Shown here: piece by piece, positions 40,069 through 60,314 of the stretch
How positions within the stretch are numbered: the first letter of the stretch is position 1
Layout: the number at the start of each line of letters is the position of its first letter
Assembly (NCBI RefSeq): GCF_002937115.1
Contig: NZ_NHRY01000269.1
Coordinates: 62,001-126,000, forward strand
Length of the DNA: 64,000 nucleotides
From: Rhodopila globiformis
Lineage (GTDB): Bacteria; Pseudomonadota; Alphaproteobacteria; Acetobacterales; Acetobacteraceae
Direction of reading: 5' to 3'
The notes under the pieces: model-generated
The model's input: only the letters and a program-made list of their open reading frames with translations
The model's database searches: none
Told to the model about the DNA's origin: nothing
Made by a program: the position numbers and the translations under genes

Positions 40069-40551
40069 ATGACCGGCCGCTGGTACGAGCGGCCCAACCG
40101 CATTCCCTGGCCGCCGATGATCTTCGCCGGCGTCGCCTGTGTGGCGGTGGTGCTGCAACACGTCTTTCCGCCCGGCCTGACGCTGCCGCCGGCCCTGCGC
40201 TGGCTCGGCGCCGCCACGATGGTTATCGGCGTCGCGCTCGACGTGTCGGCCATGGCGGTGATGCACCGGCATCGCGCCAACATCCAGCCGCACCGTGCCG
40301 CCACGGCGCTGGTGACCACAGGGCCGTTCGCCCTGTCGCGCAACCCGATCTACCTCGGCAACACGCTGCTGATCGCCGGCGCCGGGATTGCGTTCAACGT
40401 CCTGTGGTTCGTGCCGATGGCCATCGTCACCGCGTGGCTGGTGTCGCGTCTGGCGATCCGGCGCGAGGAGGCCCACCTGGCCGCCCGCTTTGGCGCCGCC
40501 TGGACGGCTTACGCCCAGCGCACCCCGCGCTGGCTGCGCCTGCGGCGCTGA
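40069..40551 (+). CDS. ICMT/PEMT-family membrane methyltransferase-like protein
   Basis: A 160-residue integral membrane protein with about four helices. The conserved C-terminal block TTGPFALSRNPIYLGNTLLIAG, followed by the RREEAHLAARFGAAWTAY segment, is diagnostic of the isoprenylcysteine carboxyl methyltransferase / phospholipid methyltransferase group, where it binds S-adenosylmethionine. The physiological substrate in bacteria is usually unknown. It lies 190 bases after the Rieske gene on the same strand. Confidence 0.85.
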   Translation: MTGRWYERPNRIPWPPMIFAGVACVAVVLQHVFPPGLTLPPALRWLGAATMVIGVALDVSAMAVMHRHRANIQPHRAATALVTTGPFALSRNPIYLGNTLLIAGAGIAFNVLWFVPMAIVTAWLVSRLAIRREEAHLAARFGAAWTAYAQRTPRWLRLRR

Positions 40552-41783: not shown

Positions 41784-42635
41784 ATGGCGCATGACCTGAT
41801 CCTGCATGAGGCGATCGTCGCGGTGCGCGACTCGCTTGGCGCGGAGCTGGATGCCATCCGCGTGTCGCGCGCCGTCGTTGGCCTTTACTTCACCGGCGTG
41901 TCGCTGGATTGCGGCACCGCCGGCGCCTGCCACACGCCGGCGAAAACCGCGGTGCACGAAGCCTGTTGCCCGATGGGCGAGCAGGTGATGCCGTTCCCCG
42001 GCACGCTCCGCGGCCGCCCCGCCTCCGACCTGCTGGAGTATGCCCTGTCGCCCAACCTGCTGGCCCGCGCCGTTGGCATCGCCACGCTGAACGCGCTGGC
42101 CGAGGTGCTGTGGCAGCGTCGTCCGCATCCGGGGGTGGACCTGCGGGTGAACGTCGATGGTTTCGATGCCGCCGCGATCCAGCCCGAGGAGCAGGTCGTG
42201 CTTGTCGGCGCCTTCATCCCGTTCCTGCGGGCGCTGAAGCAGAAGCGCCAGCCCTATACGGTGCTGGAACTCAGCACGGCGATGCTGAAGCCCGAGGAAA
42301 TGCCGCATTACCGCCCCGCCGCCGATGCCGCGGACGTGATCCCGGGCGGCGACGTGGTGCTGCTGACCGGCAGCACGCTGCTGACCAATACGCTCGACGA
42401 CCTGCTGCGGATGTGCAGGCCGGACGCCCGGGTCGTGGTGGTTGGCCCAACCGTCGGGCTGCTGCCCGAGCCGCTGCTGCGCCGCGGGGTGGACGTCATC
42501 GGTGGCATCCGCGTCACCGCGCCGGAGACGTTCCTGGACGTGCTGGCCGAGGGCGGCTCCGGCGCGCATTTCTTCGGCCGCTCGGCCGATCGCGTGGTGC
42601 TGGCCCGGCGCGGCCCGAAGCCGGCCCTGGCCTGA
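41784..42635 (+). CDS. DUF364/DUF4213 family protein (Rossmann-like, metal-chelatase-related)
   Basis: A 283-residue cytosolic protein. The N-terminal DUF4213-like domain contains DCGTAGACHTPAKTAVHEACCPMG, with four cysteines and a histidine within 24 residues. The C-terminal DUF364 domain is Rossmann-like: VVLVGAFIPFLRALKQKRQ, VLLTGSTLLTNTLDDLLRMC and VVVVGPTVGLLPEPLLRRGV. The family has been proposed to handle heavy metals or molybdenum/iron cofactors, but no reaction is established as far as I know. It ends the plus-strand unit of the ArsR island, 29 bases after cytochrome b561. Confidence 0.85.
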   Translation: MAHDLILHEAIVAVRDSLGAELDAIRVSRAVVGLYFTGVSLDCGTAGACHTPAKTAVHEACCPMGEQVMPFPGTLRGRPASDLLEYALSPNLLARAVGIATLNALAEVLWQRRPHPGVDLRVNVDGFDAAAIQPEEQVVLVGAFIPFLRALKQKRQPYTVLELSTAMLKPEEMPHYRPAADAADVIPGGDVVLLTGSTLLTNTLDDLLRMCRPDARVVVVGPTVGLLPEPLLRRGVDVIGGIRVTAPETFLDVLAEGGSGAHFFGRSADRVVLARRGPKPALA

Positions 42636-42855: not shown

Positions 42856-43482
42856 ATGTCCTTTGCTGCAAATACCGGGCGTCCAAAATCGACCGCCTCG
42901 CACCCGGCATCCAGGGTGCGATATGTTTTCAGCGGGGGTAGTCCAGATCCTGGCAGGTGGACGGTCGTGCCGCCGCAGGTTTCGTCGGCACCCGGTGGCG
43001 ACAGCGCTGCACCCGGGCCGGGGCGGCCGCAGGTCGATGCGACGCTGGAACGCCTCATTGCGCTGTACCAGGGGGCTGGCAACGCCGCGATCGACCTGGC
43101 CTCGGCGGTTGCACGGCGCATGGTGGCGTGCATCAGCTATCCCTCGTCCGGCTCGCCGGAGGCGGCTGCACAATCCGCGGCGGCCACGCCGTCGCCTGGA
43201 AATCTTGCCTTCGAAGTGGTCTCGAAGCGTGCGGCCGAGGGCATGCTGGACCTCTATATGACGGTGCCGTGGGCGTTCGCGCCTGCTGTCCATGCCCTGC
43301 ATGCCGTTGATCGGAAAAGCGATCCACTGACCGGGATCACATTTATCCCCGGCGGCATGCAGCAGCCGTCGGCCTTGCGGATCGAGGTTCCCGACGACCA
43401 GCCGCCCGGCGTTTACACCGGCGCGGTGGTCGATGCGTTGACGGGCGAATCAGGCGGCCACCTGATCCTTCGGCTGTTCTGA
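42856..43482 (+). CDS. Unknown protein, paralogue of the one at 49612-50382
   Basis: A 208-residue protein without membrane segments. A Pro/Ala/Ser-rich first 60 residues is followed by a helical region (ATLERLIALYQGAGNAAIDL) and a C-terminal beta-rich domain ending QPPGVYTGAVVDALTGESGG. The last 145 residues align with the protein encoded at 49612-50382 (PAGVYSGVVVDSATNEPCG there). It lies at the far end of the isoprenoid operon and points towards it. The helical part is somewhat phasin-like. Function unknown; I infer a link with the operon from the paralogy. Confidence 0.65.
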   Translation: MSFAANTGRPKSTASHPASRVRYVFSGGSPDPGRWTVVPPQVSSAPGGDSAAPGPGRPQVDATLERLIALYQGAGNAAIDLASAVARRMVACISYPSSGSPEAAAQSAAATPSPGNLAFEVVSKRAAEGMLDLYMTVPWAFAPAVHALHAVDRKSDPLTGITFIPGGMQQPSALRIEVPDDQPPGVYTGAVVDALTGESGGHLILRLF

Positions 43483-43523
43483 GGCTTCGGGGGACGGCCG
43501 TTATGTCAGCGCCTATGCGGCTC

Positions 43524-43539
43524 GTCCCGGCCATGACGA
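43524..43539 (+). repeat. Partial copy of the REP-like element
   Basis: gtcccggccatgacga between two convergent stop codons matches the inner part of the REP-like consensus seen at 831-1378. It supports the view that this is a dispersed genomic repeat. Confidence 0.4.
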
Positions 43540-43575
43540 CAGAGCGGCGACTGGCGTCGGCGAGTCCACATGACC

Positions 43576-44640
43576 TTATGCGTGGCTCATCAGATCCTCC
43601 CGCCGCACGCCGTCGAATCCCTGGATGAAATCGGCTCCGTAGGCGCCCGCCGGGGTCCGGAAACCGGGGCGCGCCTGGCCGGCGAGAACACGTTCTGCAA
43701 TCGCCACGACAGAATAGTACGTGAACGTATAGACGTTCGGCGTATGCAGCCGTGCCCGCACGACGCGGCGGTAGGCATCCTCGGCCTCCGCGACGATCAC
43801 CTTCGGCGTGGCCGCCCGCATCGTCTCCGACGGCCCTGCCGGCCACGCCCTGGCCGCCAGGGCCAGCAGGCTTTGCACAGGCGGAAGCCGCAGCGGTTCC
43901 GCGGCCAGTGAAACCAGTTGATAGGCCGTGCGGCCGAGGATGCCGGCTTCCAGGTAGGCTTCGATGTTCGGAATCCCGGTGGTGAACCAGGCGGTGAACA
44001 CGTCCGGCCACGGCATCGCCGTGCAGATCGAGGCGCCGCTGCCGAAGTCGAATGCCCGTTCCAGGCTGCCGGCCGGCACGGACCGCAGCACACCGTTGCG
44101 GCGGACGGGCACGAAGCCGCTGACCATGCCGAGCATGGAGGTGAAGCTGCCGCGCGAAATGACGTCGCCGCGGGAAAAGCCCAGCCGGAGGTACAGGGCA
44201 CCCGGCAGGCGGGCAGCCACATGCGCGGCCAGGCAATCCGCCGCCGCGACCACGAAGCCGGCGCCCGGCATGATCATGATGCCTGCCTGTTCCGCATGCG
44301 CATCGAGGCTGCCCAGGTAGCGCAGGACCGGGAGTTCGCCGGCAACGTCCAGGTAGTGCGTTCCGGTGCGCAGGCACGCCTCGGCAAGCGGGCGCGCCGT
44401 TGCTTCGAACGGCCCGGCGGCGTTGACCACGACGGCGGCATCCGCCAGGGCGGCGTCGACGGCGCGTGGATCGTCGAGCGCAACGACCCGGCTGGCCAGC
44501 CCCAGCGACTGCGCGAGCGGCTCGATGCGGGTGCGGTTTCTTCCGGCAACGATCGGGTCGAGCCCGCGCATCCTGGCGCGCGCCGACAGCAGCCGGCCAG
44601 TGTAGCCGCCGGCGCCATAGATCAGCAGGCGGTCAGCCAT
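43576..44640 (-). CDS. Saccharopine-dehydrogenase-like NAD(P)H oxidoreductase
   Basis: A 354-residue Rossmann protein: LLIYGAGGYTGRLLSARARM at the N terminus and DPIVAGRNRTRIEPLAQ, then VVVNAAGPFEATARPLAEAC and GTHYLDVAGELPVL. The family includes saccharopine reductases and trans-acting enoyl reductases that act on polyketide or lipid chains. Here it is the last gene of the minus-strand operon, 36 bases after the tandem acetoacetate-decarboxylase-like gene. A reduction step on an isoprenoid or acyl intermediate is plausible. The true substrate cannot be inferred. Confidence 0.8.
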   Translation of the reverse strand: MADRLLIYGAGGYTGRLLSARARMRGLDPIVAGRNRTRIEPLAQSLGLASRVVALDDPRAVDAALADAAVVVNAAGPFEATARPLAEACLRTGTHYLDVAGELPVLRYLGSLDAHAEQAGIMIMPGAGFVVAAADCLAAHVAARLPGALYLRLGFSRGDVISRGSFTSMLGMVSGFVPVRRNGVLRSVPAGSLERAFDFGSGASICTAMPWPDVFTAWFTTGIPNIEAYLEAGILGRTAYQLVSLAAEPLRLPPVQSLLALAARAWPAGPSETMRAATPKVIVAEAEDAYRRVVRARLHTPNVYTFTYYSVVAIAERVLAGQARPGFRTPAGAYGADFIQGFDGVRREDLMSHA

Positions 44641-44676
44641 GGCCGGGGCGGATCGGGCGCCGGCGGCCGCCGGCGG

Positions 44677-47600
44677 TCACGGCCCCGGCTTCCCGCGGGT
44701 CACGAAGACCGGGGCGTCGCATTCGTCGTGCTCCATGCCGGGCCAGCGCGCGAGTCCATGTTGCCTGCCCCAGGGATGGCCTGGCGCTCCCAGCGGCCCG
44801 ACGGATTCGGTGGGGAAGCAGTGATCGGGCTTTTCCCGGTAGCGCGGGCCGAAGTGCATGACCCGAGGGTCCTTTGAATCATGCTGCAGCCTGGTACGCA
44901 GATAGGGGCCGTAATTTTCCCATTCGTCGCTGAGGATGCTCTCGACGACGACCTGGATGTCGTCCAGCTGCTTCATCGACGCCGCGGCATCCGCCCGGGA
45001 CAGGCGGTACCACCGGCCGGGGTTGATCCAGTCGTCGACGATAACGTCCAGCCTTCGTGCAATCGCAGTGAGCCTGACGGTCGGATCGATTCCGACCGGC
45101 GTGTGAAGCCGCCCGGCGTCGATCTGTTCGATGTCGTGCCGGCGCCGCAGGGCAAGGAAGCTGATCTTCTTGCCTCGGCCCGCCAGCAGCAGGGCGTTCA
45201 GCGGTTCCGTCACGCTGGACGGCAAGGTCATTTCCAGCAATTTCCGTCGATTGACATCGAAACGGTTTATTTCGTGCAGCGCCTGCTGGATCTCCTGCAC
45301 GCTTTCCTTCGTCGCCTCAGAAACGAATTCCGGCCAGGTCAGGTCCTGTTCCGGCGGGGGTTCCATGACCCACGCCACAAGGCATTTCAGTTTCGTTATG
45401 GGGTCGTTGTCCTGCCAGTCCAGATCGCCCACATCGGGTCTGGCAAATGCGTCCTCCGGCATGTCCTCACGGGCGGCCCGCAGCGGGAAGTCCGGCAGTT
45501 GGAGCGGTGCTGAACGTGACTCCTTGAAAGCTTTCTCGATCGCCCGGGCCAATGCGACCATGAGATCGACCGGCAGGGCGTCGCAAAACGCCCGGAACGG
45601 GGACACCGTGAATGCGGCCTGCTCCCTGGATGCGGCCCGGAGGTCCTTGAACAGAGCGTGCAGGTGCTCGTCGAATTTTCGCACCTCGGCATCGACTGCG
45701 TTCTGGTGGTGCTGATCCAGATGTTCCACGGCCAGCGTCATCAGCGCCAGGTCGTTGGTCAGGGACTTGCGCAGCCAGCGGTCGGCCTGGTCCCGCAGAT
45801 TCTGGCCGTTGCCATCCGCCAGGTCATCGACCAGCGCCGGGCCGACGCAGGTTCGTCCGGAGGGATAGAAGAACGGACCCCGCGCCAGCCGTTCCCTGAC
45901 CCTGTGGCTCTCGGACGGAGGCCAGCCCGTTGGCCTGAACCAGGGATGCGTCATGTCCCAGACAGTGGCCGATGGGCGGCCGCCATCGCGCAGAAACGCG
46001 GAGTCCGGCTCCACGGCGCACAGCGCCCGGCCGATGATCGTCCCCAGTTCTTCCTTTATCGAAACATGCATCCAGAACGGCCGGATCGGCTGCAAATTGA
46101 AAATGACGTCGCCATTTCTGGAATCAACGCTCTTGTCCTTGAGGCCGAGCAGCTCGACGATCGGATGCCCCGGTATCCGATGCACCCGGACATGGACACG
46201 CTGCTCGATCTCGCGCATGTCATAGATCCGGGTGATTGATCGTTCCGTGTGCACCGCCGCCTGGTAGCAGGCGCGGTTCATGTCGTCGGCATCACGATAC
46301 TGCTTCATCGTAATGCGGTTTACCGGCACGCGGTGCGCAAGAAGCTCCAGCGCCAGCGCCTTGACGTTCTTCACGTGCTTATGCTGGCTCGACGCCAGCC
46401 GCGCCTTGCGCCTGAGATCGTTGACAAGCTTGCGTCCCCAGCTGTTCCCCAGGCCGCGCCATCCCTCGTCATCGCCGGGCTCCAGCACGTCATGCTCGTC
46501 GATCTCCAGCAAGGTGCGGGGCCGTTCCTCGGGATTCGTGGTGACATCCGGATAAATCGCGGTCTTGACATGCAGGAATCGCCGATCGGCGGCGGGGCCC
46601 TTCGGCGACATCCAGGCATCCTTCGGACTTTCGATCGTCGCCATCACGGTGTTCCGGCCGTTGACCTCGCGATCGGTGATGACCGCACGGGTGCCGTCGG
46701 CATAGACGAACGGCTCGACGATGCCGAGACTGATCAGCTCCTCGTTCCTGTACCACTTGACCGGCACGCAGAAGGCCACTTCATAGCGCGGCCACCAGTC
46801 GAGACTGTTGCTGCCGGCCCAGTTCGTCCCGCGCTCGCTGCGGTTCGACGCCACGACCATGTAGACATAGCTTCCGCAGGTTTCGAGTTTGAGCTTCTCT
46901 CCCATGCTCTGGGGCGCCCCGGCGAACGGCCGGTTCCAGTACGTTTCGATCAGATGATCGAGCCTTTCCCTGTCCGCCAGCAGCGGATAGACCTGAAGCG
47001 TTATTTCAGGGAAATGGAACGGTCCCGCCACGGGCTGCGTCGCCCCGCCCAGCGCGGTGCTGAACACGTTGGGCGCCTGCTGGGCGAAACCCGCCCGGCC
47101 GAAGCGTGCCGCCGCCGCGGCCTCGGCCTGCATCGGTTCCCATTCCACGCTGCCCGGAAGGTGGCGGCGGCCACTGGCCTTCCACGCGCGGTCATCGATC
47201 CATTTGTTGACTGTCCGCTGTTCGGTCAACTGTCCCATCTGATTGGTGCGGGAACAGATCACCTCGCCGGCTCCGTAGAACAGGTCAACGTTCATCCAGA
47301 ACGGAAAGCTCGGCTTCAGCGTTGTCACGGTGCCGTCGGGAACGTTCAGGTCGGTGACCCCCACCTCGATCCCCAGCGACTCGACGATCGGCTGGGCGAT
47401 ATAACGATGGATACGAATCGAATATCCGCCGGAGGGATCGGCCCGCAGCAGATCCCAGTCCCCCAGCAGGCCGCTGCCGTTGAGCCGATCGACGCCCATG
47501 GCGGAATCCACCAGGGCCGTGTAGCAGGACAGATGCGGTTTTTCGGGATCGCGGAACTGCTTCAGGGTGATGTTCTGGGTGAACAGCTTCGGCACGTCCA

Positions 47601-48498
47601 TGTAGGTCTTCACGCCCACCGCGTTGGCCGAGCCGCGCGGGCCGGCCGCCGCCTCGCCGGAGCCGCCGAGCGACGGCAACAGCAATCCCGACAGCATGTT
47701 GTTGGCGAGCGAGGTCGCTTTCGCGCTCATATCGAACAACGCCAGCAGGTTGCGGCCGGGCGGAAAGCCCCGGATGCGCAGCCCGGCCAGGATGTCGGTG
47801 GCATCGCCAAGCAACGAAAGCGAACTGCGCAGCATGTTGGGAACAATCGCCGTGACCGACCATGGACAGTTCACGTCGGCGGGAAATTCCGCATAGGACG
47901 CGGCAGGCGCGCGATCCACCTCGACCAGCACCTGCATCCCGTCGTCGCCGGCTGCACGGGCCGCGCCAGGGATTTGCGTGCTCATGCGCAACAGCCGCGT
48001 CGGCGCGCGCGGATGGGTCGTCCACAGCGGCGTGTCGGCGTCGATGCGCGCCAGCGCCTTCGGCCAGCCGTAGACCTCGCGGCCGGTGGTCAGCGACATC
48101 GGGGCATCGACGAAGATGAATGGCGAGACGCTGGCCCAGTCCTGGAACACCAGCTTGCCGTTCTGCCTTTGCCAGCGCTGCAGCGGAACGGCGAACAGCA
48201 CCTCGTGCTGCGCCACCCAGCCGAGGCTCTGCGCCTGATGGGACGTCATCGACATGCCGCCATAGTTCAGCACGGCGAAATAGACGTATGGCAGCGCCGG
48301 CGTGAAATGAACAATGGAATCCGGAATATCCATGTTCAGGTACTCGTCGCAGAACTGCGTCAGCCGCGCCATGTTCGCCTTCAGCGGGAAAACACGGGCG
48401 GTGACCTCGCGAAACAACATCGGCGGCCCGAAGTATACGCCATCCTGGACCAGGTCACCGACCGGATCGATATACCTGGGCTTGAGGTAGAGCGGCAT
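44677..48498 (-). CDS. Giant protein with two acetoacetate-decarboxylase-like domains
   Basis: A 1273-residue protein. The ATG at 48498 has gggagg seven bases upstream; frames beyond it are shadows of the polyprenyl synthase gene. Domain 1 (about 1-430) carries TTGREVYGWPKALARID with K147 at the position of the Schiff-base lysine of acetoacetate decarboxylase. Domain 2 (about 480-830) has TDREVNGRNTVMATIES, in which the lysine is lost. Both domains close with a similar block (HRYIAQPIVESLG / HRIPGHPIVELLG, PFWMNV / PFWMHV). The last 440 residues are helical and unfamiliar. No signal peptide. Acetoacetate-decarboxylase-like domains also act as aldolases or dehydratases, so decarboxylation is only one possibility. 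Confidence 0.8.
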   Translation of the reverse strand: MPLYLKPRYIDPVGDLVQDGVYFGPPMLFREVTARVFPLKANMARLTQFCDEYLNMDIPDSIVHFTPALPYVYFAVLNYGGMSMTSHQAQSLGWVAQHEVLFAVPLQRWQRQNGKLVFQDWASVSPFIFVDAPMSLTTGREVYGWPKALARIDADTPLWTTHPRAPTRLLRMSTQIPGAARAAGDDGMQVLVEVDRAPAASYAEFPADVNCPWSVTAIVPNMLRSSLSLLGDATDILAGLRIRGFPPGRNLLALFDMSAKATSLANNMLSGLLLPSLGGSGEAAAGPRGSANAVGVKTYMDVPKLFTQNITLKQFRDPEKPHLSCYTALVDSAMGVDRLNGSGLLGDWDLLRADPSGGYSIRIHRYIAQPIVESLGIEVGVTDLNVPDGTVTTLKPSFPFWMNVDLFYGAGEVICSRTNQMGQLTEQRTVNKWIDDRAWKASGRRHLPGSVEWEPMQAEAAAAARFGRAGFAQQAPNVFSTALGGATQPVAGPFHFPEITLQVYPLLADRERLDHLIETYWNRPFAGAPQSMGEKLKLETCGSYVYMVVASNRSERGTNWAGSNSLDWWPRYEVAFCVPVKWYRNEELISLGIVEPFVYADGTRAVITDREVNGRNTVMATIESPKDAWMSPKGPAADRRFLHVKTAIYPDVTTNPEERPRTLLEIDEHDVLEPGDDEGWRGLGNSWGRKLVNDLRRKARLASSQHKHVKNVKALALELLAHRVPVNRITMKQYRDADDMNRACYQAAVHTERSITRIYDMREIEQRVHVRVHRIPGHPIVELLGLKDKSVDSRNGDVIFNLQPIRPFWMHVSIKEELGTIIGRALCAVEPDSAFLRDGGRPSATVWDMTHPWFRPTGWPPSESHRVRERLARGPFFYPSGRTCVGPALVDDLADGNGQNLRDQADRWLRKSLTNDLALMTLAVEHLDQHHQNAVDAEVRKFDEHLHALFKDLRAASREQAAFTVSPFRAFCDALPVDLMVALARAIEKAFKESRSAPLQLPDFPLRAAREDMPEDAFARPDVGDLDWQDNDPITKLKCLVAWVMEPPPEQDLTWPEFVSEATKESVQEIQQALHEINRFDVNRRKLLEMTLPSSVTEPLNALLLAGRGKKISFLALRRRHDIEQIDAGRLHTPVGIDPTVRLTAIARRLDVIVDDWINPGRWYRLSRADAAASMKQLDDIQVVVESILSDEWENYGPYLRTRLQHDSKDPRVMHFGPRYREKPDHCFPTESVGPLGAPGHPWGRQHGLARWPGMEHDECDAPVFVTRGKPGP

Positions 48499-48554
48499 TC
48501 GGTTCCTCCCCTCCTGTTGGCAAGACCGGATCAGCCGGATCCTGCGGCACGGCG

Positions 48555-49589
48555 TCAGGCACGATGGAATATCCAGTGCGTCAGGCCCCTGATGAACTGC
48601 CTGTCGCGCGAGTCCGGCAGGCAGTCGAAGATTCGCGCATATTCGTGCAAGGCCGCGCCTGCCAGGCCATGGGCGATGCCGCGGGCATAGGCGATGGACC
48701 CGTATTCCTCCATCAACGCGCGGATCCAGGCGACCTGCTCCGCGGTGCGCACCGCGCGGGCGGAATCCAGCAGTTCGGCCAGGATCCTGCGTTGCGGCGG
48801 CGGAGACAGCCGATAGACATGATTCAGCATCAGCGTGCGCTTGCCCTCGAAGATGTCGCCGTTCGGCTCCTTGCCATAGGTTTCGTCGGGAACCAGGTTC
48901 AGCAGGTCGTCCTGGATCTGGAACGCTGCCCCAAGGAAAAATCCGAAGCGGATGAAAGGCTCGAGATCGATGCTGTCGCGCGTGCCGATCATTGCGCCGA
49001 TGCGGCCTGGGTGAATCGATGCGAGCCAGCAGGTCTTTTTCAGCACCATTGTCAGGTAATCCGCATCGGTCAGGTTGTGGCAGTTGTCGCGCCGCCAACC
49101 CAGTTCCATTGCCTGGCCCTCGGCGGATTCCCAGGCCATGCGCTCGGTTTCCCGCACGATGGACAGCGCCAGCCTTGGTCCGATGCGCCCGAAATTATCG
49201 AACAGCGGGCGCATGCTCAGCAGCGCCAGGGCATCGCCGGTGTTCAGCGCCAGTGGTATGCCGTGCAGGGCATGCAGCGTGGGGCTGTCGCGGCGCTGCT
49301 CGCTTTCATCCTCGATATCGTCGTGAATGAGCAGGGCGTTGTGCATCAGCTCGATCGCCACCGCCGAAAGCAGGGCGTCGTCTATGCTGGCGCCGAACAC
49401 CCGGGCGGTGGCAATGCACAGGCTGGACCGCATCATCTTGCCGCCGCGACGCGGATAGTCCGCCAGCAGATCGTACAGGTGCGGGCCGGGTTCCGCGGCC
49501 GGGAAATATGCCTGCATCGCGGCCCGGGTCATTGCGCCATACTCGGCGAGGGTTTCACGAACCACATCCGGGGCGACAACGTGGTCCAT
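48555..49589 (-). CDS. Trans-polyprenyl diphosphate synthase (GGPP synthase-like)
   Basis: A 344-residue head-to-tail prenyltransferase. The first aspartate-rich motif is D90-D91-I-E-D94 in LLIHDDIEDESEQRRDS. The second, AAFQIQDDLLNLVPDETYGK, has D227-D228-L-L-N231, a DDxxN form seen in some GGPP synthases. RRGGKMMRSSL supplies the diphosphate-binding Gly-Lys-Arg region, and DIFEGKRTLMLNHV is the KR(T) segment. It condenses isopentenyl diphosphate units; product length cannot be read. It is followed 56 bases later by the acetoacetate-decarboxylase-like gene. The neighbouring desaturase-like enzyme makes a specialised isoprenoid likely. Confidence 0.88.
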   Translation of the reverse strand: MDHVVAPDVVRETLAEYGAMTRAAMQAYFPAAEPGPHLYDLLADYPRRGGKMMRSSLCIATARVFGASIDDALLSAVAIELMHNALLIHDDIEDESEQRRDSPTLHALHGIPLALNTGDALALLSMRPLFDNFGRIGPRLALSIVRETERMAWESAEGQAMELGWRRDNCHNLTDADYLTMVLKKTCWLASIHPGRIGAMIGTRDSIDLEPFIRFGFFLGAAFQIQDDLLNLVPDETYGKEPNGDIFEGKRTLMLNHVYRLSPPPQRRILAELLDSARAVRTAEQVAWIRALMEEYGSIAYARGIAHGLAGAALHEYARIFDCLPDSRDRQFIRGLTHWIFHRA

Positions 49590-49611
49590 GATGTCCGACC
49601 TTCAGGCCATG

Positions 49612-50382
49612 TCAGGACATGATCCGCACGGATAACGTTCCGCACGGTTCATTGGTTGCGCTGTCAACGACGACGCCGGAATAGACGCCGGCCGGCTGGC
49701 CGTCCGGAACGTCTAGGTGCAGGACCGGCGAGGCCGTCGCCGGGTCCAGGTGGAAACGAACCGCCGTCAGCGGCGGCGCCGACGGCGTGGCGGCATGCAG
49801 GCTGTGCACCAGCGGCATGAACGTCGCGCCCTGCGGCCGGATGTCCAGCCTGACCTGCGTGCGGCGATTGGCGGCAAGTTCGAAACGGAAATTCGTGGCG
49901 CCGCCTGTTGTCGTTGCGGCGGCGGCGTCAGGCGATGCCTGCCAGGCGCGGGTGACGCCGGGCTGGAGCAGCGGGCTGCGCACCAATGTCTCCATCGCGG
50001 CGACCGCCAGCGCGCCCATGTCCTTGTAGATGTTGAGCGCCCGCTCGATCAGCGTGCTGAGTTCGGCCGGCGGCATCGCGCCGGGCTTGCCACTGACCTG
50101 CCGGAGCCGCGCGGCGAGTTTCTCGCCTTGCCGGATCTGCTCGTCGATGACGCTGTATCCCAGCTTCACGCCATGCGCGACCGTGGCCTCGATCGGCGCT
50201 CCGTCGTCCTGCTCGGGCGCGGCGGCGGTTTTTTCGCCGCCCAGCCCATGAGTCCGGATATAGCTCATGAAATCGCGGCGCGGTTCGTCGCGATCCAGTT
50301 CCGGACGGTGGAGCCGTTCAGGCTTGTCCACGACAATGCCTCGTGGCCGAACGGCGATTGGTTCTGGCTCCGAACCGGACAT
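49612..50382 (-). CDS. Unknown protein of the isoprenoid operon
   Basis: A 256-residue protein without signal peptide or membrane helix. The N-terminal 100 residues are charged (PERLHRPELDRDEPRRDFMS), the middle is helical (LIERALNIYKDMGALAVAAMETLV, an amphipathic stretch) and the C-terminal 100 residues form a beta-rich domain ending GVYSGVVVDSATNEPCG. It shares its last 145 residues with the product of 42856-43482. It lies 22 bases upstream of the polyprenyl synthase gene. The layout suggests a structural, scaffold or lipid-associated protein rather than an enzyme; this is inference. Confidence 0.6.
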   Translation of the reverse strand: MSGSEPEPIAVRPRGIVVDKPERLHRPELDRDEPRRDFMSYIRTHGLGGEKTAAAPEQDDGAPIEATVAHGVKLGYSVIDEQIRQGEKLAARLRQVSGKPGAMPPAELSTLIERALNIYKDMGALAVAAMETLVRSPLLQPGVTRAWQASPDAAAATTTGGATNFRFELAANRRTQVRLDIRPQGATFMPLVHSLHAATPSAPPLTAVRFHLDPATASPVLHLDVPDGQPAGVYSGVVVDSATNEPCGTLSVRIMS

Positions 50383-50590
50383 CCTGATGCCGGGGCGGTA
50401 CGATTCTGCATCGGTGGCACATCGCGAGGCTCCCCCCTACCTTCGCGCGAAACACGGGAATTCTCTGTTATCCAGGCCGGTTTCGCCTACTCATTTTTTG
50501 GATATCACCCGCTCATCATGAGATTTGTGTGTCCTGATGCAATTGCGTCACGGGTTGCCGTCAGTATCATCGCGGAATACGCGATGACTC

Positions 50591-52795
50591 CTACGGATGG
50601 TCGTAGCCGGTGATATCCTCCAGTGGCGGCCACAGCGAAATCGCATGGGCCGCAAGGCGTCCCGACATGACCGCGGCCTCCACGCAGCCGGCGTTGTAGC
50701 CGCAATCCGTCCAGTCGCCGGCGATCGTCAGGTTGTCATAAGTATTGTCCAGTGGAGAAATCCGGCAGCGAAGCGTTCCCGGCAGCATAAGAACATAGCG
50801 GTCGGACGGATTCACGTTCGCTGTCCAGTACTGGGAGGAAAAGCGGCGTTCGCCGGCGACGGCGGACCCGGGATCCGACGGCGACTCATCGGGGTCGAGA
50901 AGCAGATCCCAACGGAAACCGCCTGACCACGCCAGCGCATTTGGCCAGAGGTGGTGGACCTGCCGGTTCAGGAAGTCGATGGCATTCCGCCGCACTTCGT
51001 CATGGCACGACGCTTCGTAGCCCGGTGCGTCCGCGTCCGATGGAGCGGCGGGGTCCGCCAGCACGTTGCAGAAATAGGCGACGGACCGCGGCGGCGAGCG
51101 CCAGTTCTCCTCGGGAATGACGTGCCCCATGTCGGCCCAGGTATCGAACGGCTTGGTGAAGGCGGACAGTGTCACCGGCGCTTCGGTCCAGCCCAGGGCC
51201 GCCATATCCTCGGTCATCCAGACCTGGAATGCCTGGGTCGCCACGGTCTTGACGTTGGCAACCATGCTCCGCCACCGCGCGTCGCGTTCCAGGATGTCCC
51301 GGCAGACGAACGGAATCACGCCGACGCTGACGCCCAGGACGACGAAATCGAAGTCCTCTGTAACGCGCAGCGTCCTGGCGCGGCTGCGGCGTCGTTCCCA
51401 ATGGGACTCGAATCGCCAGCCCTCCTGCCGCAGGCGCTCTCCGTCAACCAGTTGCGAGAAATCGGGCGTGGACGGCCAGCACGGCACGCGCTTGACGTCG
51501 ACCAGCGGCTGGTATTCCCCGCCACCGGCGATCTCGGCCTGTACGTCGAATTCGAGTGCCTCGACATAGGGACACTCGCCAAAGCCAAGCGATTCGACCG
51601 GCGCAAGCTTCACATCCGTCAACCGGTGGAAGAATTCGAAACGAACGCCGCGCCGCTTGAGCACTTCATAATACGGGGCGAACACGCAGTCGCCCATGCC
51701 GGACCGGAGCTTCCAGAAAATGGCACCGCGATAGGTGAAGAACAACCGCATCGAGCCGCGCAGGGCCTGTCCCGCGGCGAGGCCCGGGCGGGTTGGGTCG
51801 CCGTCCTCGTAGGCCATTGCCAGGTCGTACAGCCCGCGCACGAAGGCCGAATTCAGCGACCGTTCCGACGCCCCGTTCATGCGCAGCCACTCGCGGCTGT
51901 CGTACTGGTCGATGGCGCTCAGCCCTCTCGGGTCGGTCATCAGGCGGAAGCGCACCGCGCCCACCAGGAATGCCAGTACGAGGTCGATGACTTCCCATTT
52001 GTAGCATAGTCCGTCCTGCTCGGTAACGAAACTCTCCAGGCGGCCGCGTATGGCGGATACCACGGCTTCCATCAGGTTTCCGACAAGTCGTTCCGGAAAG
52101 GCCGGCAATGACCTCAGCGCAACGGTCAGCACGCCCAGCGCCTCGCTGATCGCGGCCGCGCTGGACAGAACCCCGATCCGCAGCAGCCGCGTCATGGTTG
52201 CGATCACGGTCTTTACGGTTGCCGGTGGCGGCTCGCCCTGCTCCGGTAGCCAGCCGGGCAAGTCCGGGCCAGTGTTTCCGGCGGGATCGCCGGGCGCATA
52301 ACGTGTTCGCGTGTGGAACAACAGCAACCGGAGCATTGCGACCGTGCGCGCAAGATAGCTCCGTAACGTGAACGGACTGTTCAGCGCCACCGGGTCGCCG
52401 GGCAACCCGTCAGCCGGAGGAAAATAGGCGAGCCACTCAAGCCAGTTTCCCGACCGGGACCATTCCGTCAAGCCAATATGCGGTTCCGGGAAGAACGCAT
52501 CGCGCCAGCCGGCAATGGGACACACGGCCGGATCGCGGCCCAGTTCGGCGTAGCATTCGCGCAGCAGCCGGAATGCGTTTTCATAGTAGCCAAGCCAGAT
52601 ATGCAGCCCATGCTCTTCGATGCGGCTGGCCGGCCCACGACCGGACGCCCCCTTGCCGCCCAGGCGCCAGCCGACCTGGTAGATCGTGACCTGGTATTTT
52701 CCGCGATGGTGCGGCCGTGTCAGCTCAAAGGCCGTCGTTATCGAGGCACAGCCACCGCCGATGATGGCAACCTTGATGGATTCGTCACGCCGCAT
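50591..52795 (-). CDS. FAD-dependent desaturase/amine-oxidase-like oxidoreductase
   Basis: A 734-residue flavoprotein. The N-terminal dinucleotide motif is VAIIGGGCASITTAFELTR (with serine/cysteine in place of the last small residues), followed by YQVGWRLGGKGASGR. The C-terminal FAD-binding motif LTIAGDWTDCGYNAGCVEAA is like that of phytoene desaturases, hydroxysqualene dehydroxylases and amine oxidases. The central 400 residues are unusually long and mostly helical. It presumably desaturates or oxidises the isoprenoid product of the neighbouring synthase. It starts 72 bases after the cyclase/ATPase gene and is the first enzyme gene of the operon. Confidence 0.82.
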   Translation of the reverse strand: MRRDESIKVAIIGGGCASITTAFELTRPHHRGKYQVTIYQVGWRLGGKGASGRGPASRIEEHGLHIWLGYYENAFRLLRECYAELGRDPAVCPIAGWRDAFFPEPHIGLTEWSRSGNWLEWLAYFPPADGLPGDPVALNSPFTLRSYLARTVAMLRLLLFHTRTRYAPGDPAGNTGPDLPGWLPEQGEPPPATVKTVIATMTRLLRIGVLSSAAAISEALGVLTVALRSLPAFPERLVGNLMEAVVSAIRGRLESFVTEQDGLCYKWEVIDLVLAFLVGAVRFRLMTDPRGLSAIDQYDSREWLRMNGASERSLNSAFVRGLYDLAMAYEDGDPTRPGLAAGQALRGSMRLFFTYRGAIFWKLRSGMGDCVFAPYYEVLKRRGVRFEFFHRLTDVKLAPVESLGFGECPYVEALEFDVQAEIAGGGEYQPLVDVKRVPCWPSTPDFSQLVDGERLRQEGWRFESHWERRRSRARTLRVTEDFDFVVLGVSVGVIPFVCRDILERDARWRSMVANVKTVATQAFQVWMTEDMAALGWTEAPVTLSAFTKPFDTWADMGHVIPEENWRSPPRSVAYFCNVLADPAAPSDADAPGYEASCHDEVRRNAIDFLNRQVHHLWPNALAWSGGFRWDLLLDPDESPSDPGSAVAGERRFSSQYWTANVNPSDRYVLMLPGTLRCRISPLDNTYDNLTIAGDWTDCGYNAGCVEAAVMSGRLAAHAISLWPPLEDITGYDHP

Positions 52796-52867
52796 CCCGA
52801 TCCTCTTGCCGCCGTCCAGGCGACGGCCGTTTCATTGTTAATTCTTCTTGTGCCCGGGGTGTTCTTT

Positions 52868-55800
52868 TCAATCCGCCATCTGTGCTTCCGGCATGGACAA
52901 GGCCGCCAGTTCCGCAAGTGCCTCGGCCTCGGTCGGCACTGCGCCCTGGGAACGCGCGATCGACAGTGCCATCCTCAGTTCCGACGCCACGCGCGCCCGG
53001 TCGGGCGCCCTTGCCCGGGCCAGGACCCTGGCCCGCACCAGGTGCGCGCCCGCAAGATAAGCGAAGTCATGATACCGGATGATCAGGTCGATCGACGCAT
53101 CCGCCATCCGCAGCGCTTCATCGTGCCGATCCGTTTCGGCATAGAACAGAGCCAGGTGGCTGGTGAAGAACCCGCTGAGCGTCGAGCAGCCGGCCTTTTT
53201 CCAGTCGGCAAGCGCGGCGAGCAGCAGGTCTCGGGCCTGCCGGACCTGGCCGAGATGGCCGAGGGCAATTGCCAGATGCGCCCGCGCGCTCAACAGCCAG
53301 GTACCGAAGCCGCAGGATTCCGAGACCTGGATGGCGCGCTCTGCCTCGTGCTTCGCCCGGCCATAGTCTTTTCGCGAGATCGCGTAACTGGCCAGGAACG
53401 TGCTGGCAATGGCCTGGTCGAACGGGCGGTTGAGCGACTGCACCCAGGCTGACAGTGCTTGCGCCGACGTTTCGGCACCGAGATCATCGCCGCGGAGGAA
53501 GCGCGTAATGGGCGCCACGATCAATGCCGACGTCTTCGCGTTCGCTTCGCTCGCGACGACGCTGCAGGCTGCCTCGTTCTGCTCGTACAGCCGAACTGCC
53601 CGATCGATACGGAACAGCAGTTCGTCGCCCAGTTGCCCGGTCAACCGCAGAATGAACGCCAGCGATGCATCCGCTTCGACAATATAGGGGATGTGCCCCG
53701 ATTGCTCGCCGATCCTGACGCAGGTTCGCGCCAGTTCCTCGGCGGCGACCGCATCGCCCCGCACCGTCCAGAGCTTGCACAGTCCGTGCAGCACCGGGAA
53801 CAATGGCGCGGTGTCGCCCATCCAGCTGCAGATGGCACGGGCGCGCATCAAGACGTCGCGCACCTCATCCGCTGCGTAGCCGTGCCGGGCCGACAGGCTG
53901 AGGGCGAGCGGGATGAGGCAGGAAAGCTCCTGCTGAAGCCGCGTGGTTTCGTCGGGCAGCAGGTCGATCAGCTTGAGGGCTTCGTTGTAGTGTTCGATCG
54001 CCTCGCGGTTTGCCGCCCGTGCCGCGGCGCGCCGGCCGGCCGCGATCCAGTATGGCAGGGCAGCCACCGGCGTTGCGGTCTGCGACAGGTGATAGGCGAG
54101 CACCTCCGGCTGGCTGTCCCGCACCTCGGGGAACCTGGCCTCCAGCGTCGCGGCCACCTGGCCGTGCAGGTTCTGCCGCTCGGACTTGATGATCGAGTCG
54201 TGGGCGGCGTCGCGCATCAGCGCATGCCGGAACAGATAGGTGCTCGCCGGCGGGTTGCCGGCTTGCCTGACGACGCCGGATCGCTTCAGCACGCCGAGGG
54301 CCGAGCGCAGCATCTGCTCCGGCCACGCCGCAACGGCGAACAGCAATTCGTAGCTGAACTGCCGCCCGATCACCGCGCCGATGCTGGCGATGCGCCGGGC
54401 CGGTCCGAGGCGATCCAGGCGCGCCACCAGCGAGTCGTGTAGCGACAAGGGTATTACATCCGGTTCGGCGCCGTCGATCGAAGCCGGGCCGGTCGCTTCC
54501 CGCGATTCGACGACGGACCGCGTCAGTTCCTCCAGATAAAACGGAATGCCATCGGAACGTTCTATCACCTGCGCCACCAGTTCCGGCGGCAGCGTGCCGG
54601 CGGCGACATGGGCGCAAATCTCACCGGCGCCTGCCGCATCAAGCCGGTCCAGGCCCAGTGTGGTGACGAACCGGAACGATGTCCACCGCGCCTTGAATTC
54701 CGGCCGGGCGGTCACGAAGACCAGGCAACGCTGGGCGGGCAGGTTGCGGACGATCAGGTCCAGCAGTTCCAGAGTCGAGGCATCGATCCAGTGCGCATCC
54801 TCGACGAACAGGATGAACGGTCCGGCGTCGCTTAACCGTACCAACTCCGCAACCAGGGCGGCCAGCGTCAGTTCCTTGCGCTTTCCCGGCGTCATCGCGT
54901 CCAGCGGCGACGTAACGGCGCCGGGGATCGACAACAGGGCCGCGAAGATCGCCAGCGTCATCGGCTCCGGCGGCTGGGGATGGCTCAGCAGGCGGGTCAG
55001 CTTTTCGATCGCGATCGGCGGCGGGTCCTTGGCGCCGATCCTGGCCGCGCGGGTGAATTGCTCGATGACCGGATGGAACGGGCTGTCCTCGTGCTGCGGG
55101 GAGCCGAACCAGCGGATGCGCGGCGCGGGATCGCCGGCGAGTTCGTGATCGAAACATTCCGCCAGCCGCGACTTGCCGATCCCGGCGTCGCCGATGACCT
55201 GGACGACCTGGCCTTCTCCGGCAAGCATTCTGCGCCAGATCCGCAACAATTTGCCGAGTTCCGGCTGCCGGCCGACGAACGGCGTGGGTTCGCCCTGCAG
55301 GCGGGCATGGAAGCGGCTGATGGCCGTATCCGGCCCGGTGACCCGCCAGGCGCGAACCGGCTGTGTGAAGCCTTTCAGCGACAGGCTGCCGGCATCCTCG
55401 TAGTTGAACAGCCCGCGGGTGACGCGCCTGGTTTCATCGGATATCATGATCGTGCCCGGCTGCGCGACGGACTGCAGCCGGGCGGCGAGGTTGGGGATTC
55501 GCCCAGTGATTTCCGCCATGCGGCGGTTGGCGCGGCTGACGCGGTCGCGCACGGTCACCAGGCCGGTGGCAATCCCAATGCGGATCTGCAACGGCATTTC
55601 GGCGTCCGCATCCATCGTCCGCACGGCGTCGAGTATATCGAAGGCCGCATATACGGCCGTGGCTGCATCGTCCTCGTGGGCGTGGGGATAGCCGAAATAG
55701 GCCAGCACGCCGTCGCCCATAAACTGCGCGAGAAAGCCGCCGCGGTCCGCGACGATGTTATCGCAGACGATATGATAGCGTTCCAGTGTCTGCATGAGAT

Positions 55801-56005
55801 CTTCCGGGTCGAGCTTGACGGACAAGCCGACCGAGTCGATAAGATCGCAGAACACCGCGGTCGCGGGACGGCGCTCCGACCGGTTGATCGAGTCCCCGAC
55901 GTTTCGCAGTTGCCTGGCGCTGTTCGCCGATTGGAAGGCGAAGCCGCATGCGACGCAGACCAGGGAATCCGGCGGGGACTGGCGATTGCACCTCGGACAG
56001 TTCAC
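52868..56005 (-). CDS. Class III nucleotide cyclase fused to AAA ATPase and TPR sensor
   Basis: A 1045-residue multi-domain protein. A GTG at 56005 with gggagga just before it is chosen because family members begin MNCPRC; the frame is open 30 codons further. Order: zinc ribbon CPRCNRQSPPDSLVCVACG, cyclase domain with AVFCDLIDSVGLS and FMGDGVLAYFGYP (metal aspartates) and the LQIRIGIATGLVTV block, then an AAA ATPase with Walker A GDAGIGKSRL and Walker B FILFVEDAHWID, then a long helical TPR-like region to the end. Such proteins are large transcription/signalling regulators that may make cAMP or cGMP. As the first gene in line with the isoprenoid genes, it could sense a signal and control them. 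Confidence 0.85.
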   Translation of the reverse strand: MNCPRCNRQSPPDSLVCVACGFAFQSANSARQLRNVGDSINRSERRPATAVFCDLIDSVGLSVKLDPEDLMQTLERYHIVCDNIVADRGGFLAQFMGDGVLAYFGYPHAHEDDAATAVYAAFDILDAVRTMDADAEMPLQIRIGIATGLVTVRDRVSRANRRMAEITGRIPNLAARLQSVAQPGTIMISDETRRVTRGLFNYEDAGSLSLKGFTQPVRAWRVTGPDTAISRFHARLQGEPTPFVGRQPELGKLLRIWRRMLAGEGQVVQVIGDAGIGKSRLAECFDHELAGDPAPRIRWFGSPQHEDSPFHPVIEQFTRAARIGAKDPPPIAIEKLTRLLSHPQPPEPMTLAIFAALLSIPGAVTSPLDAMTPGKRKELTLAALVAELVRLSDAGPFILFVEDAHWIDASTLELLDLIVRNLPAQRCLVFVTARPEFKARWTSFRFVTTLGLDRLDAAGAGEICAHVAAGTLPPELVAQVIERSDGIPFYLEELTRSVVESREATGPASIDGAEPDVIPLSLHDSLVARLDRLGPARRIASIGAVIGRQFSYELLFAVAAWPEQMLRSALGVLKRSGVVRQAGNPPASTYLFRHALMRDAAHDSIIKSERQNLHGQVAATLEARFPEVRDSQPEVLAYHLSQTATPVAALPYWIAAGRRAAARAANREAIEHYNEALKLIDLLPDETTRLQQELSCLIPLALSLSARHGYAADEVRDVLMRARAICSWMGDTAPLFPVLHGLCKLWTVRGDAVAAEELARTCVRIGEQSGHIPYIVEADASLAFILRLTGQLGDELLFRIDRAVRLYEQNEAACSVVASEANAKTSALIVAPITRFLRGDDLGAETSAQALSAWVQSLNRPFDQAIASTFLASYAISRKDYGRAKHEAERAIQVSESCGFGTWLLSARAHLAIALGHLGQVRQARDLLLAALADWKKAGCSTLSGFFTSHLALFYAETDRHDEALRMADASIDLIIRYHDFAYLAGAHLVRARVLARARAPDRARVASELRMALSIARSQGAVPTEAEALAELAALSMPEAQMAD

Positions 56006-56457
56006 GTCTTCCTCCCACGTGGTACCGATCCACCAAGTATATGGCGCGTGGCTTAAGGTTTGTTGAGCCTCGTCGTCTATCTTATTATTGGCCACGACGG
56101 ATCATAGTGCGGGATTGCATGTCGTCGATAGGGACTCTCACGACCTTGTGGCCGCGGTCGCCCGGATGCGCAACCGATACATAATAGTAACAGTATGGAA
56201 TAACAACGGGACGGCAATGCAACGCCGGAAACGACGCCGGTGCCTTTCGTTGTTGCAGTACCGCCGCTATTCGGCGCAACCCATCCGGGGCCGCGCCCGG
56301 CGGCACCCGCACCGCAACGGGCAGCGCCGACAGCGGCAGCATCGCTCGGCACTGCGGCCGGTCCCTTGGCGGATCCGCGGTCCTGGAGTCGCCGGCACAG
56401 TGATCGCCACAGCATGATTGACTTGGCGTCCACGCACCAAAGCGGGATAACACCAGC
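56006..56457. other. Divergent promoter region between the cyclase and bolA-like genes
   Basis: A 452-base gap. Around 56160-56200 it is AT-rich (gatacataatagtaacag), which is a plausible promoter area. No gene with a ribosome site was found on either strand. Confidence 0.4.
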
Positions 56458-58452: not shown

Positions 58453-59850
58453 TCAGTGCGCCGGCAGCGCATCCAGCGCGGTCTGCACCATCTTGGCGTC
58501 CTCGCCGTCCGCCGGCAGCTGGGCGTGCAGGGCCTGCCAGTAGCGCCGCGCATCGTCGGGCCGGGAGTCCTGCGCCGCCGCCAGGCCGAGGTACCAAAGC
58601 GCCACCGGCTGCTTTGGATCGTGCGCCTCGACCTGCTTCAGCCAGCCGACGACCCGGGGCGGGATCCGCGCCGGCGGCCTCAGTTCGGCCAGGAGCGCCC
58701 GCGCCGCCTGCAGCGGGATGGCGTCGTCGTCCGGCTTCAGCGCCGCCGCCTTGTCATAGGCGTCGGCGGCCTTGTCCGGCTCATGCAGCACGGCATAGGC
58801 TTTGCCCAGGCGCAGCCAGCCCTCCAGGTTGGTGGGATCGGCTTCCTGCTGCGCCGCCAGCTTCCCGACCATGCCGCGGATCATCGCTTCGCGCTGCTCG
58901 GGCGACATCCTGGCGGCATCCGCCATGGCCTTCGCGCCCGGCCCCGGGGCAGGCTGGTTTGGTGCCACCTGGTCGGGCGTGGGTTCGGCCGTGCCCTTGG
59001 CCAGTTCCGGCATCGGGATCCCGGCCGCCTTCGCCGCCTGGGCAATCTGCTGTGCGACGGTCTGGCGTGCCGGGGAATCCGAAGGCATCTCGGCCAGCAG
59101 CGCCTGCCAGCCGTCGATCGCCTTGCGCGGCTCGCCGGCCTGCGCGCGTGCCAGCGCCAGGTAGAACCGTGCCATGCCGTTGCCGGGATCGACCTTCAGG
59201 ATCTGGTTGAACGCCGCCTCGGCCGCCGGCGTCACCGTCCCGCTGGCCGCCATGACCATCATTTCGGCATGGTCCGCCAGCACCTCGGGGCTGTTGGCGC
59301 CCAGGTCGATGGCGTGGCGATAGGCATCCTCGGCCTTGTCCCACTGGTTCAGCATCCCCAGGCTGCGGCCATACAGCAGCCAGCCCTGCGGGTCGGACGG
59401 GTTCTGCTTCAGCTTCGCCGCCAGTTCGGCCACCGCCTTCTGCATGCCCGCCTCGTCGCCGCCGGCGACCTCGGAGGCGGGCCGCGAGGCGTACGGCACG
59501 TCCGGCACCTCCGGCGAGCCCAGCCACAGGTACAGGCCGACGGAGCCGAGGCCGACGACGAGGAAAACGGCAACCGCCAGCAGCGGGCTGCGGGCCAGGC
59601 GCGCCGGCGGGGCCGGGGTCTGCTCGGCCGCCAGCAGCCGGCGCTGGATTTCCAGCCGCGCCGTCTCGGCGTCGGTTTCCGTCAGCAGGCCGCGGGCGAT
59701 GTCGCGGTCGAGTTCCTGCAACTGGTCGCGGTAAACCGCCTGGTCGAAATTGGCCCGCGCCGGCACCGGCCGCGCCCCGCGCAGCAGCGGCACCAGCAAT
59801 GGCAGCAGGGCGACGAACGCCAGCAGTGCCAACAAGAAGGGAAGGATCAA
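58453..59850 (-). CDS. ccmI: Cytochrome c maturation protein CcmI (CycH)
   Basis: A 465-residue membrane-anchored chaperone that holds apocytochrome c for haem attachment. Helix 1 is FLLALLAFVALLPLLVPLLRG, then a short cytosolic part with YRDQLQELDRDIARGLLTETDAE. Helix 2 is LLAVAVFLVVGLGSVGLYLWL. The periplasmic part has TPR-like helices (GWLLYGRSLGMLNQWDKAED; GNGMARFYLALARAQAGEPRK). The stop region and the ATG overlap with ccmH by four bases. It closes the ccmF-G-H-I operon, transcribed on the minus strand. Confidence 0.93.
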   Translation of the reverse strand: MILPFLLALLAFVALLPLLVPLLRGARPVPARANFDQAVYRDQLQELDRDIARGLLTETDAETARLEIQRRLLAAEQTPAPPARLARSPLLAVAVFLVVGLGSVGLYLWLGSPEVPDVPYASRPASEVAGGDEAGMQKAVAELAAKLKQNPSDPQGWLLYGRSLGMLNQWDKAEDAYRHAIDLGANSPEVLADHAEMMVMAASGTVTPAAEAAFNQILKVDPGNGMARFYLALARAQAGEPRKAIDGWQALLAEMPSDSPARQTVAQQIAQAAKAAGIPMPELAKGTAEPTPDQVAPNQPAPGPGAKAMADAARMSPEQREAMIRGMVGKLAAQQEADPTNLEGWLRLGKAYAVLHEPDKAADAYDKAAALKPDDDAIPLQAARALLAELRPPARIPPRVVGWLKQVEAHDPKQPVALWYLGLAAAQDSRPDDARRYWQALHAQLPADGEDAKMVQTALDALPAH

Positions 59851-60314
59851 CCCTCGTTATCCTGTAATAATCTTTCCAGCCGGCGGCGTTCCTCGGCGTT
59901 CAGCGGCGCCACGGCCACCGGCGACACATAGCGGCGCCGCAGCCAGAACGCCGTGCCCACCAGCCCGAGCGCCACCAGCCCCGGCGGCCCGAACCACAGC
60001 AGATAGGTTGCCGGCTCGACCGGCGGTTTCAACAGCACGAACTGGCCGTAGCGATTGACCACCGCCTGGATGGTCTGCGCATTGGTGTCGCCGGCAACCA
60101 GCCGCTCACGCACCAGCATCCGGATGTCATGCGCCAGATCGGCGCCGGATTCGTCAATGGATTCGTTCTGGCAGACCAGGCAGCGCAGTTCGCTGCTGAT
60201 GACGCGGGCGCGCGCCTCCAGCACCGGGTTGGCCAGGCGTTCACCCGGCTCCACGGCATGGGCGGCGGTCATCGCCGACAGTGCCAGGGCCAGGCTCAGC
60301 AACAGGGCTTTCAT
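59847..60314 (-). CDS. ccmH: Cytochrome c maturation protein CcmH (CycL)
   Basis: A 155-residue periplasmic thiol oxidoreductase, anchored by a C-terminal helix (LLWFGPPGLVALGLVGTAFWL). It has a signal peptide (LLLSLALALSAMTAAHA). The redox-active C45 and C48 are in LRCLVCQN; they reduce the apocytochrome CXXCH cysteines. The RMLVRERLVAGDTNAQTIQAV segment is typical of the family. Its start overlaps the ccmG stop and its stop overlaps ccmI. Confidence 0.95.
   Translation of the reverse strand: MKALLLSLALALSAMTAAHAVEPGERLANPVLEARARVISSELRCLVCQNESIDESGADLAHDIRMLVRERLVAGDTNAQTIQAVVNRYGQFVLLKPPVEPATYLLWFGPPGLVALGLVGTAFWLRRRYVSPVAVAPLNAEERRRLERLLQDNEG

Follow-up and report, generated by a model that had tools for sequence, protein, structure and literature searches.

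We analysed a 64,000-nucleotide stretch of the Rhodopila globiformis genome (contig NZ_NHRY01000269.1, positions 62,001 to 126,000; hereafter the window) that carries six genes in a row on the minus strand: a sensor with nucleotide cyclase, ATPase and TPR parts, a phytoene-desaturase/HpnE-like flavoprotein (FAD), a protein of no known family (UNK), a trans-polyprenyl diphosphate synthase (PPS), a tandem acetoacetate-decarboxylase-fold protein (ADC) and a saccharopine-dehydrogenase-like reductase (SDH) (Table 1). From sensor to SDH, the intergenic gaps computed from the coordinates are 72, 208, 22, 56 and 36 bases. An earlier note on this DNA had listed six spaced minus-strand genes; its frames, families and gaps (22–209 bases in its count) held up, and its sensor start, 56005, is an alternative in-frame GTG, 30 codons inside the start at 56095 and just before the zinc-ribbon cysteines. 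The span given in the note, 42856–56005, also takes in UNK2, a plus-strand gene on which its text is silent and because of which the span begins at 42856. The longest open frame of ADC begins at 49098, compared with the called gene start at 48498. A scan found 4 promoter-like sites (mean 2.0 in shuffles) and 12 terminator-like sites (mean 8.5), a result that was not used.

Table 1 Genes and sequence features of the block, in window positions
Feature	Position	Strand	Description
sensor	52868-56095	minus	class III nucleotide cyclase, AAA_16 ATPase and weak TPR; Pfam/NCBIfam
FAD	50591-52795	minus	734 aa; phytoene-desaturase/HpnE-like flavoprotein; PF01593/PF13450
UNK	49612-50382	minus	no known family; adjoins PPS in relatives
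PPS	48555-49589	minus	344 aa; trans-polyprenyl diphosphate synthase; PF00348
PPS first metal motif DDIED	49308-49322	minus	aa 90-94
PPS second metal motif DDLLN	48897-48911	minus	aa 227-231
ADC	44677-48498	minus	1273 aa; tandem acetoacetate-decarboxylase-fold protein
ADC domain 1	47245-48483	minus	aa 6-418; GREVYGWPK lysine kept (Lys147, bases 48058-48060)
ADC domain 2	46027-47073	minus	aa 476-824; Thr at lysine position
ADC C-terminal region	44680-46026	minus	aa 825-1273; divergent, mostly helical; low-confidence model
SDH	43576-44640	minus	354 aa; saccharopine-dehydrogenase-like NAD(P) reductase; PF03435
UNK2	42856-43482	plus	208 aa; second UNK-family copy; convergent with the six-gene block

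Family assignments of the six proteins

All of the proteins except UNK were recognised by Pfam and NCBIfam, with no NCBIfam model at its curated cut-off. PPS belongs to the polyprenyl synthase superfamily (PF00348, 164 bits, cut-off 27), and three of its four PDB matches at E ≤ 1e-25 are named geranylgeranyl synthases, the fourth being a polyprenyl synthetase. Among its homologues at the loci described below, the first metal motif is DDxxD in all 43 resolved sequences, while the second is DDxxN in all 41, the third aspartate being replaced. A small residue (A, S or G) stands five positions before the first DDxxD in 43 of 43 sequences; by the chain-length rules for these enzymes, this points to a product beyond C15. 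Assignment of PPS as the polyprenyl transferase cargo of family 2 encapsulins was rejected (146.7 bits for NF041169, cut-off 450).

The tandem architecture of ADC, which the earlier note had read as two acetoacetate-decarboxylase-like domains in a 1273-residue protein, was confirmed by more than one route. Pfam sees a single domain, PF06314 matching residues 67–163 only (34.4 bits, cut-off 29.8), and iterated profiles delimit both. In the predicted model of residues 420–1273 (mean pLDDT 62, domain 2 better), all 14 PDB matches of domain 2 at E ≤ 0.001 are ADC-family structures, with TM-scores of 0.49–0.66 normalised by target length. Domain 1 is thus placed in the fold by PF06314 and domain 2 by its predicted structure. 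Lys147, in the motif GREVYGWPK, is invariant in 20 of 20 aligned sequences and aligns, in a weak match, with the lysine of GFPKK in 4zbo/6eej, which we take to be the position of the Schiff-base lysine of the family. The next residue in the window protein is alanine, where acetoacetate decarboxylases have a second lysine. Of 21 two-domain ADC proteins, 20 have the lysine in the first domain and 1 has it in the second. From these sequence patterns, the better reading of ADC is an enzyme half joined to one that has degenerated, and not a plain scaffold, so that the fold proposed by the earlier note stands and the scaffold role is revised. We know of no other ADC-family enzyme in which a catalytic half is joined to a lysine-free half. 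The C-terminal 449 residues are divergent, with short shared motifs: ILSxEW is common to the C-terminal regions of these proteins and KPDxC occurs in several, at differing positions.

For FAD, the sole PDB match of its profile at E ≤ 1e-5 is a plant phytoene desaturase (5mog), and its best NCBIfam match is HpnE (58.8 bits, cut-off 283), PDS and ZDS scoring lower. As the curated cut-off was not reached, FAD was not accepted as HpnE or phytoene desaturase proper. SDH had no PDB match at E ≤ 0.001; an SDR that occurs at other loci is nearest to HpnA (110 bits, cut-off 368). The sensor matches PF00211, PF13191 and, weakly, TPR models, and its cyclase part resembles solved adenylate cyclases. It aligns with TIGR03903 (TOMM_kin_cyc) at 483.6 bits (cut-off 705.75) over model positions 281–1266; since the alignment starts at position 281, the sensor has no kinase part. 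A RiPP/TOMM cluster was rejected because of this sub-threshold score and the lack of any such gene among the six, and a Pycsar defence system because the cyclase matches were weak (best 53 bits) and no effector matched among the window proteins scanned.

UNK had no match in Pfam and one sub-threshold match in NCBIfam. Its predicted model (pLDDT 79) has helices at 63–97 and 105–135 and an eight-strand C-terminal beta part, with an Arg/Pro motif at the N-terminus and disordered linkers; the fold had no PDB match at E ≤ 0.001 (best E 0.15). UNK2 scores 100.9 bits with the UNK profile and, over 172 residues, shares 30.8% identity with UNK (E 3e-16); most of the N-terminal motif region is missing from it. 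No second UNK copy was found at E ≤ 0.01 in the 80 fetched loci (best 80 of 563). The helical pair, beta domain, linkers and Arg/Pro motif, together with this second copy, are what one might expect if UNK were a phasin-like coat or tether in a block that makes a polyprenyl hydrocarbon or lipid and packs it into granules or membrane patches. We regard this as improbable: the likeness is an impression to which neither the family search nor the fold comparison lends support.

Recurrence of the block in other genomes

A nine-sequence FAD alignment was searched against 84,980 species genomes, and the genes were mapped by profiles in the best 80 of 563 loci plus one further genome of the phylum, G516. 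In 47 close loci (L038, L045–L087, L091, L094 and L107; the window itself left out), UNK was present in 44, PPS in 43, ADC in 38 and the sensor in 27, and many of the absences fall at contig ends. ADC, for example, is absent in nine, six of which have less than 1.8 kb after FAD. A reductase was found in 36 of 47, SDH-like in 24 and an HpnA-like SDR in 12, never both. Recurrence of the gene set as a block, the check that the earlier note had itself proposed, was thus found, and it extends across seven phyla. The individual roles shifted. The saccharopine-dehydrogenase-like reductase proved exchangeable. The sensor said to preside over the block is a neighbour in more than half of these loci and is missing from loci with long flanks (L071, L073, L081 and L084), so it is part of the neighbourhood and not of the chemistry. 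Regulators of other kinds also occur near the block, namely a BTAD-TPR protein (L071:17204-19558, minus), a Ser/Thr kinase-TPR protein (L063:6733-9348, plus) and a Crp-type protein (L056:19336-20058).

In 54 of the 55 loci that hold both, UNK and PPS share a strand and are separated by less than 300 bases; L069 is the exception. The protein that the earlier note had left as unknown, and which still has no known family, thus accompanies PPS steadily and belongs to the core of the block.

Further searches were started from other members or made within narrower groups. Among 398 genomes of the phylum, 27 matched FAD at E ≤ 0.001, five of them strongly (its own genome, G516, G615, G502 and G525). 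In G516, FAD, UNK, PPS and SDH stand in one row with a pair of ADC genes that overlap. The UNK profile matched four of these 398 genomes at E ≤ 0.01, strongly in its own genome (two copies) and G516 and at the borderline in G423 (E 0.008) and G610 (E 0.010). At E ≤ 1e-60, PPS was found in 2 of 250 genomes of the order, its own and the same-genus G852, and in 1 of 385 genomes of the class, its own. Strong matches of the UNK- and PPS-started searches were confined to genomes holding the block. In G852, which is probably the same record as L066, the block comprises FAD, UNK, PPS, ADC and the sensor. Six other listed genomes of the genus had no PPS of this kind in the E ≤ 1e-60 search, so even members of one genus differ in carrying the block. 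Of 289 genomes of the class, only its own had the full ADC protein, and the whole protein had no match on plasmids at E ≤ 1e-5.

Pairwise distances of the six proteins correlate in all 15 pairs (r 0.71–0.93; n 13–45 loci; 0 of 1,000 permutations each). It could be argued that the genes are chance neighbours without a common function, given that each family is common on its own and that the sensor and reductase vary. The recurrence, the UNK- and PPS-started searches, the distance correlation and the FAD branch described next all contradict this, and we give it almost no credence.

The FAD tree and FAD–ADC pairs

In a tree of 89 FADs, all 56 with UNK and PPS nearby fall inside one branch of 62 rows (support 84), nested in a 63-row branch (support 98). 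The six unlabelled rows of the branch (L047, L072, L085, L098, L117 and L119) are short contigs or end near FAD. The UNK + PPS label required 6 changes on the tree, a count that includes these six unresolved rows, compared with 26.9 after shuffling, and none of 500 shuffles came as low. Labelled rows belong to Pseudomonadota, Myxococcota, Acidobacteriota, Gemmatimonadota, Cyanobacteriota, Candidatus Binatota and Actinomycetota. Cyanobacterial rows are nested among alphaproteobacteria, which suggests that the block has passed between lineages by transfer. In the mycobacterial loci that have UNK and PPS, these two are encoded on the strand opposite to sensor–FAD, at a distance of a few kb.

Outside the branch and the actinobacteria, 19 loci have neither UNK nor PPS that we could find. 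Eight of them (L100, L103, L104, L114, L116, L120, L122 and L123) have ADC and FAD as a single fused frame, another eight have the two genes side by side, and in three ADC was not found; Catenovulum and Azospirillum plasmids are among the places where such pairs occur. Constant pairing of this kind suggests that the product of FAD is the substrate of ADC, and PPS–UNK looks like a later, single addition to FAD–ADC. In two loci FAD itself has a C-terminal extension of about 230 residues (L034:7980-10886 and L040:9056-11974); the ADC profile did not recognise these extensions and we do not claim them as ADC-like.

Apart from the enzymes, no neighbour is commoner than the sensor, which is also present in 9 of the same 19 loci. 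This, the weak Pycsar-cyclase matches and a TIR gene beside UNK–PPS in Mycolicibacterium senegalense (TIR-LpqN, also labelled TIR-TPR; L096:458-2737, minus) would fit a signalling or defence island dominated by the cyclase/ATPase/TPR protein, with the enzymes as effectors. However, the match to the cyclase is a generic one, no other protein of the window is matched by PADLOC, the TIR gene is not among the open reading frames common to at least 3 of 15 actinobacterial loci, and well-flanked loci lack the sensor. We consider such an island very improbable.

Within the 7,248,147-base R. globiformis assembly, three further PF00348 genes lie on other contigs, as do all five matches to PF00494, the squalene/phytoene-synthase family; ordinary isoprenoid routes can therefore do without this locus. 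Two contigs carry four PF00124 matches between them, indicating two sets of reaction-centre genes, one of which shares its contig with one of the PF00348 genes. One PufM has a score of 572.5 bits with 7xxf, the PDB entry from R. globiformis, compared with 465.9 for the chain that comes second. PF00494 was not found on the window's contig, in line with the earlier statement that the set has no squalene or phytoene synthase. With the NCBIfam models below cut-off as well, a carotenoid or hopanoid cluster was rejected. Since none of the six proteins reached an NCBIfam cut-off, the block is not a catalogued carotenoid, hopanoid or quinone system, and the claim that the combination falls outside such clusters stands. 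Around the block, a PEMT/ICMT-like methyltransferase (window 40069-40551, plus) lies about 3 kb away, a DUF4213/DUF364 putative heavy-metal chelation protein (41784-42635, plus) adjoins it, and cytochrome c maturation genes (CcmH/CycH-type TPR and CcmF; 58453-62842, minus) lie upstream.

Proposed pathway and comparison with known systems

We propose, with about even confidence, that the block encodes a pathway that builds a prenyl chain of C20 or longer and oxidises it, the chain then being processed by an ADC enzyme of the lysine type and reduced. The gene set, its recurrence, the co-varying distances, the tandem ADC fold and the motifs kept or lost are observed; the substrate, the order of the steps, what UNK does and the product are our inference. 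Following this logic, PPS would synthesize a prenyl diphosphate, all-trans and C20 or longer, together with UNK, a dedicated partner that serves as a subunit or anchors it to a membrane or lipid surface. FAD, being of the phytoene-desaturase/HpnE kind, would oxidise the prenyl chain. ADC domain 1 would then form a Schiff base between its lysine and a carbonyl compound, for decarboxylation or aldol-type chemistry, with the degenerate domain 2 probably structural or substrate-binding. SDH, or elsewhere the HpnA-like SDR, would reduce the product, and the cyclase/ATPase/TPR sensor would regulate the block. The block would then be a mobile, widely spread isoprenoid-modification unit. The fuller proposal, which is plausible though we hold it at somewhat short of even confidence, is that bacteria make an isoprenoid lipid of a new class, by means of a block that arose when a FAD–ADC pair, with a catalytic and a lysine-free ADC half, captured PPS and UNK once, and that then spread between phyla.

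Several observations weigh against this pathway. Because FAD was used to collect the loci, the counts over the 47 of them presuppose its presence, and common descent may be partly behind the distance correlation. L086, which keeps FAD, sensor and ADC, is the one clear absence of UNK and PPS. ADC was mapped by profile in 0 of 15 actinobacterial loci and is missing from the Archangium loci L051, L052 and L069 although about 10 kb follows FAD there; ADC is thus either dispensable in some carriers or encoded at another place. The Pfam match of ADC is barely above threshold and its PDB sequence matches are weak (E 0.007). L087 accounts for both exceptions to the lysine pattern, which is reversed between its domains; where two separate ADC genes occur (seven loci), the second copy has the lysine in one, L038. 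The ADC of G852 has one domain, and its 13-kb contig has no SDH. Finally, the existence of FAD–ADC pairs without PPS and UNK means that the shared chemistry need not be isoprenoid.

This last point is the basis of the alternative we take most seriously, in which the substrate of FAD and ADC is a carbonyl or acyl compound outside the isoprenoids, and PPS and UNK only supply a prenyl tail that is attached to it, giving a meroterpenoid-like lipid. Pairs or fusions lacking PPS and UNK in 16 of 19 loci, and those of the Catenovulum and Azospirillum plasmids, favour it. Against it, none of the six genes is of prenyltransferase type, and the nearest relatives of FAD by profile (phytoene desaturase and HpnE) are isoprenoid enzymes; neither point is decisive, and we consider the attached-tail route possible but unlikely.

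If the build–oxidise–process–reduce pathway is correct, an isoprenoid product without a name would be common to bacteria of seven phyla, and a prenyl chain would undergo both desaturase-type flavin chemistry and Schiff-base chemistry at a lysine. Cultured carriers include Novosphingobium sediminis, Archangium, Methylotetracoccus, Sulfitobacter and Synechococcus-type cyanobacteria.

Each of the families is known. The gene set was not described in the open-access literature searched, a scope that takes in few subscription papers, and we class it as a putative isoprenoid-modifying gene cluster. The sensor resembles the TOMM kinase/cyclase (TIGR03903), its cyclase–ATPase–TPR part aligning nearly end to end, but it lacks the kinase part and scores below cut-off, and no thiazole/oxazole peptide genes are among the six. 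FAD shares the FAD-binding ends and amine-oxidase superfamily of phytoene desaturase and HpnE; unlike HpnE, it is about 300 residues longer than the model and far below its cut-off, and unlike those systems the six genes come without a squalene or phytoene synthase. PPS is like the geranylgeranyl and other short-chain synthases (IdsA type; PDB 1wmw) in its PF00348 domain, DDxxD motif and best PDB match, a GGPP synthase, and differs from IdsA in having DDxxN throughout as second motif and in its score (168 bits, cut-off 468). ADC is closest to the acetoacetate decarboxylase family, including MppR and Swit_4259, through the fold of domain 2 and the domain 1 lysine aligned with 4zbo/6eej; in contrast to that family, it carries two domains per chain, one lysine and an extra 449-residue C-terminal region.

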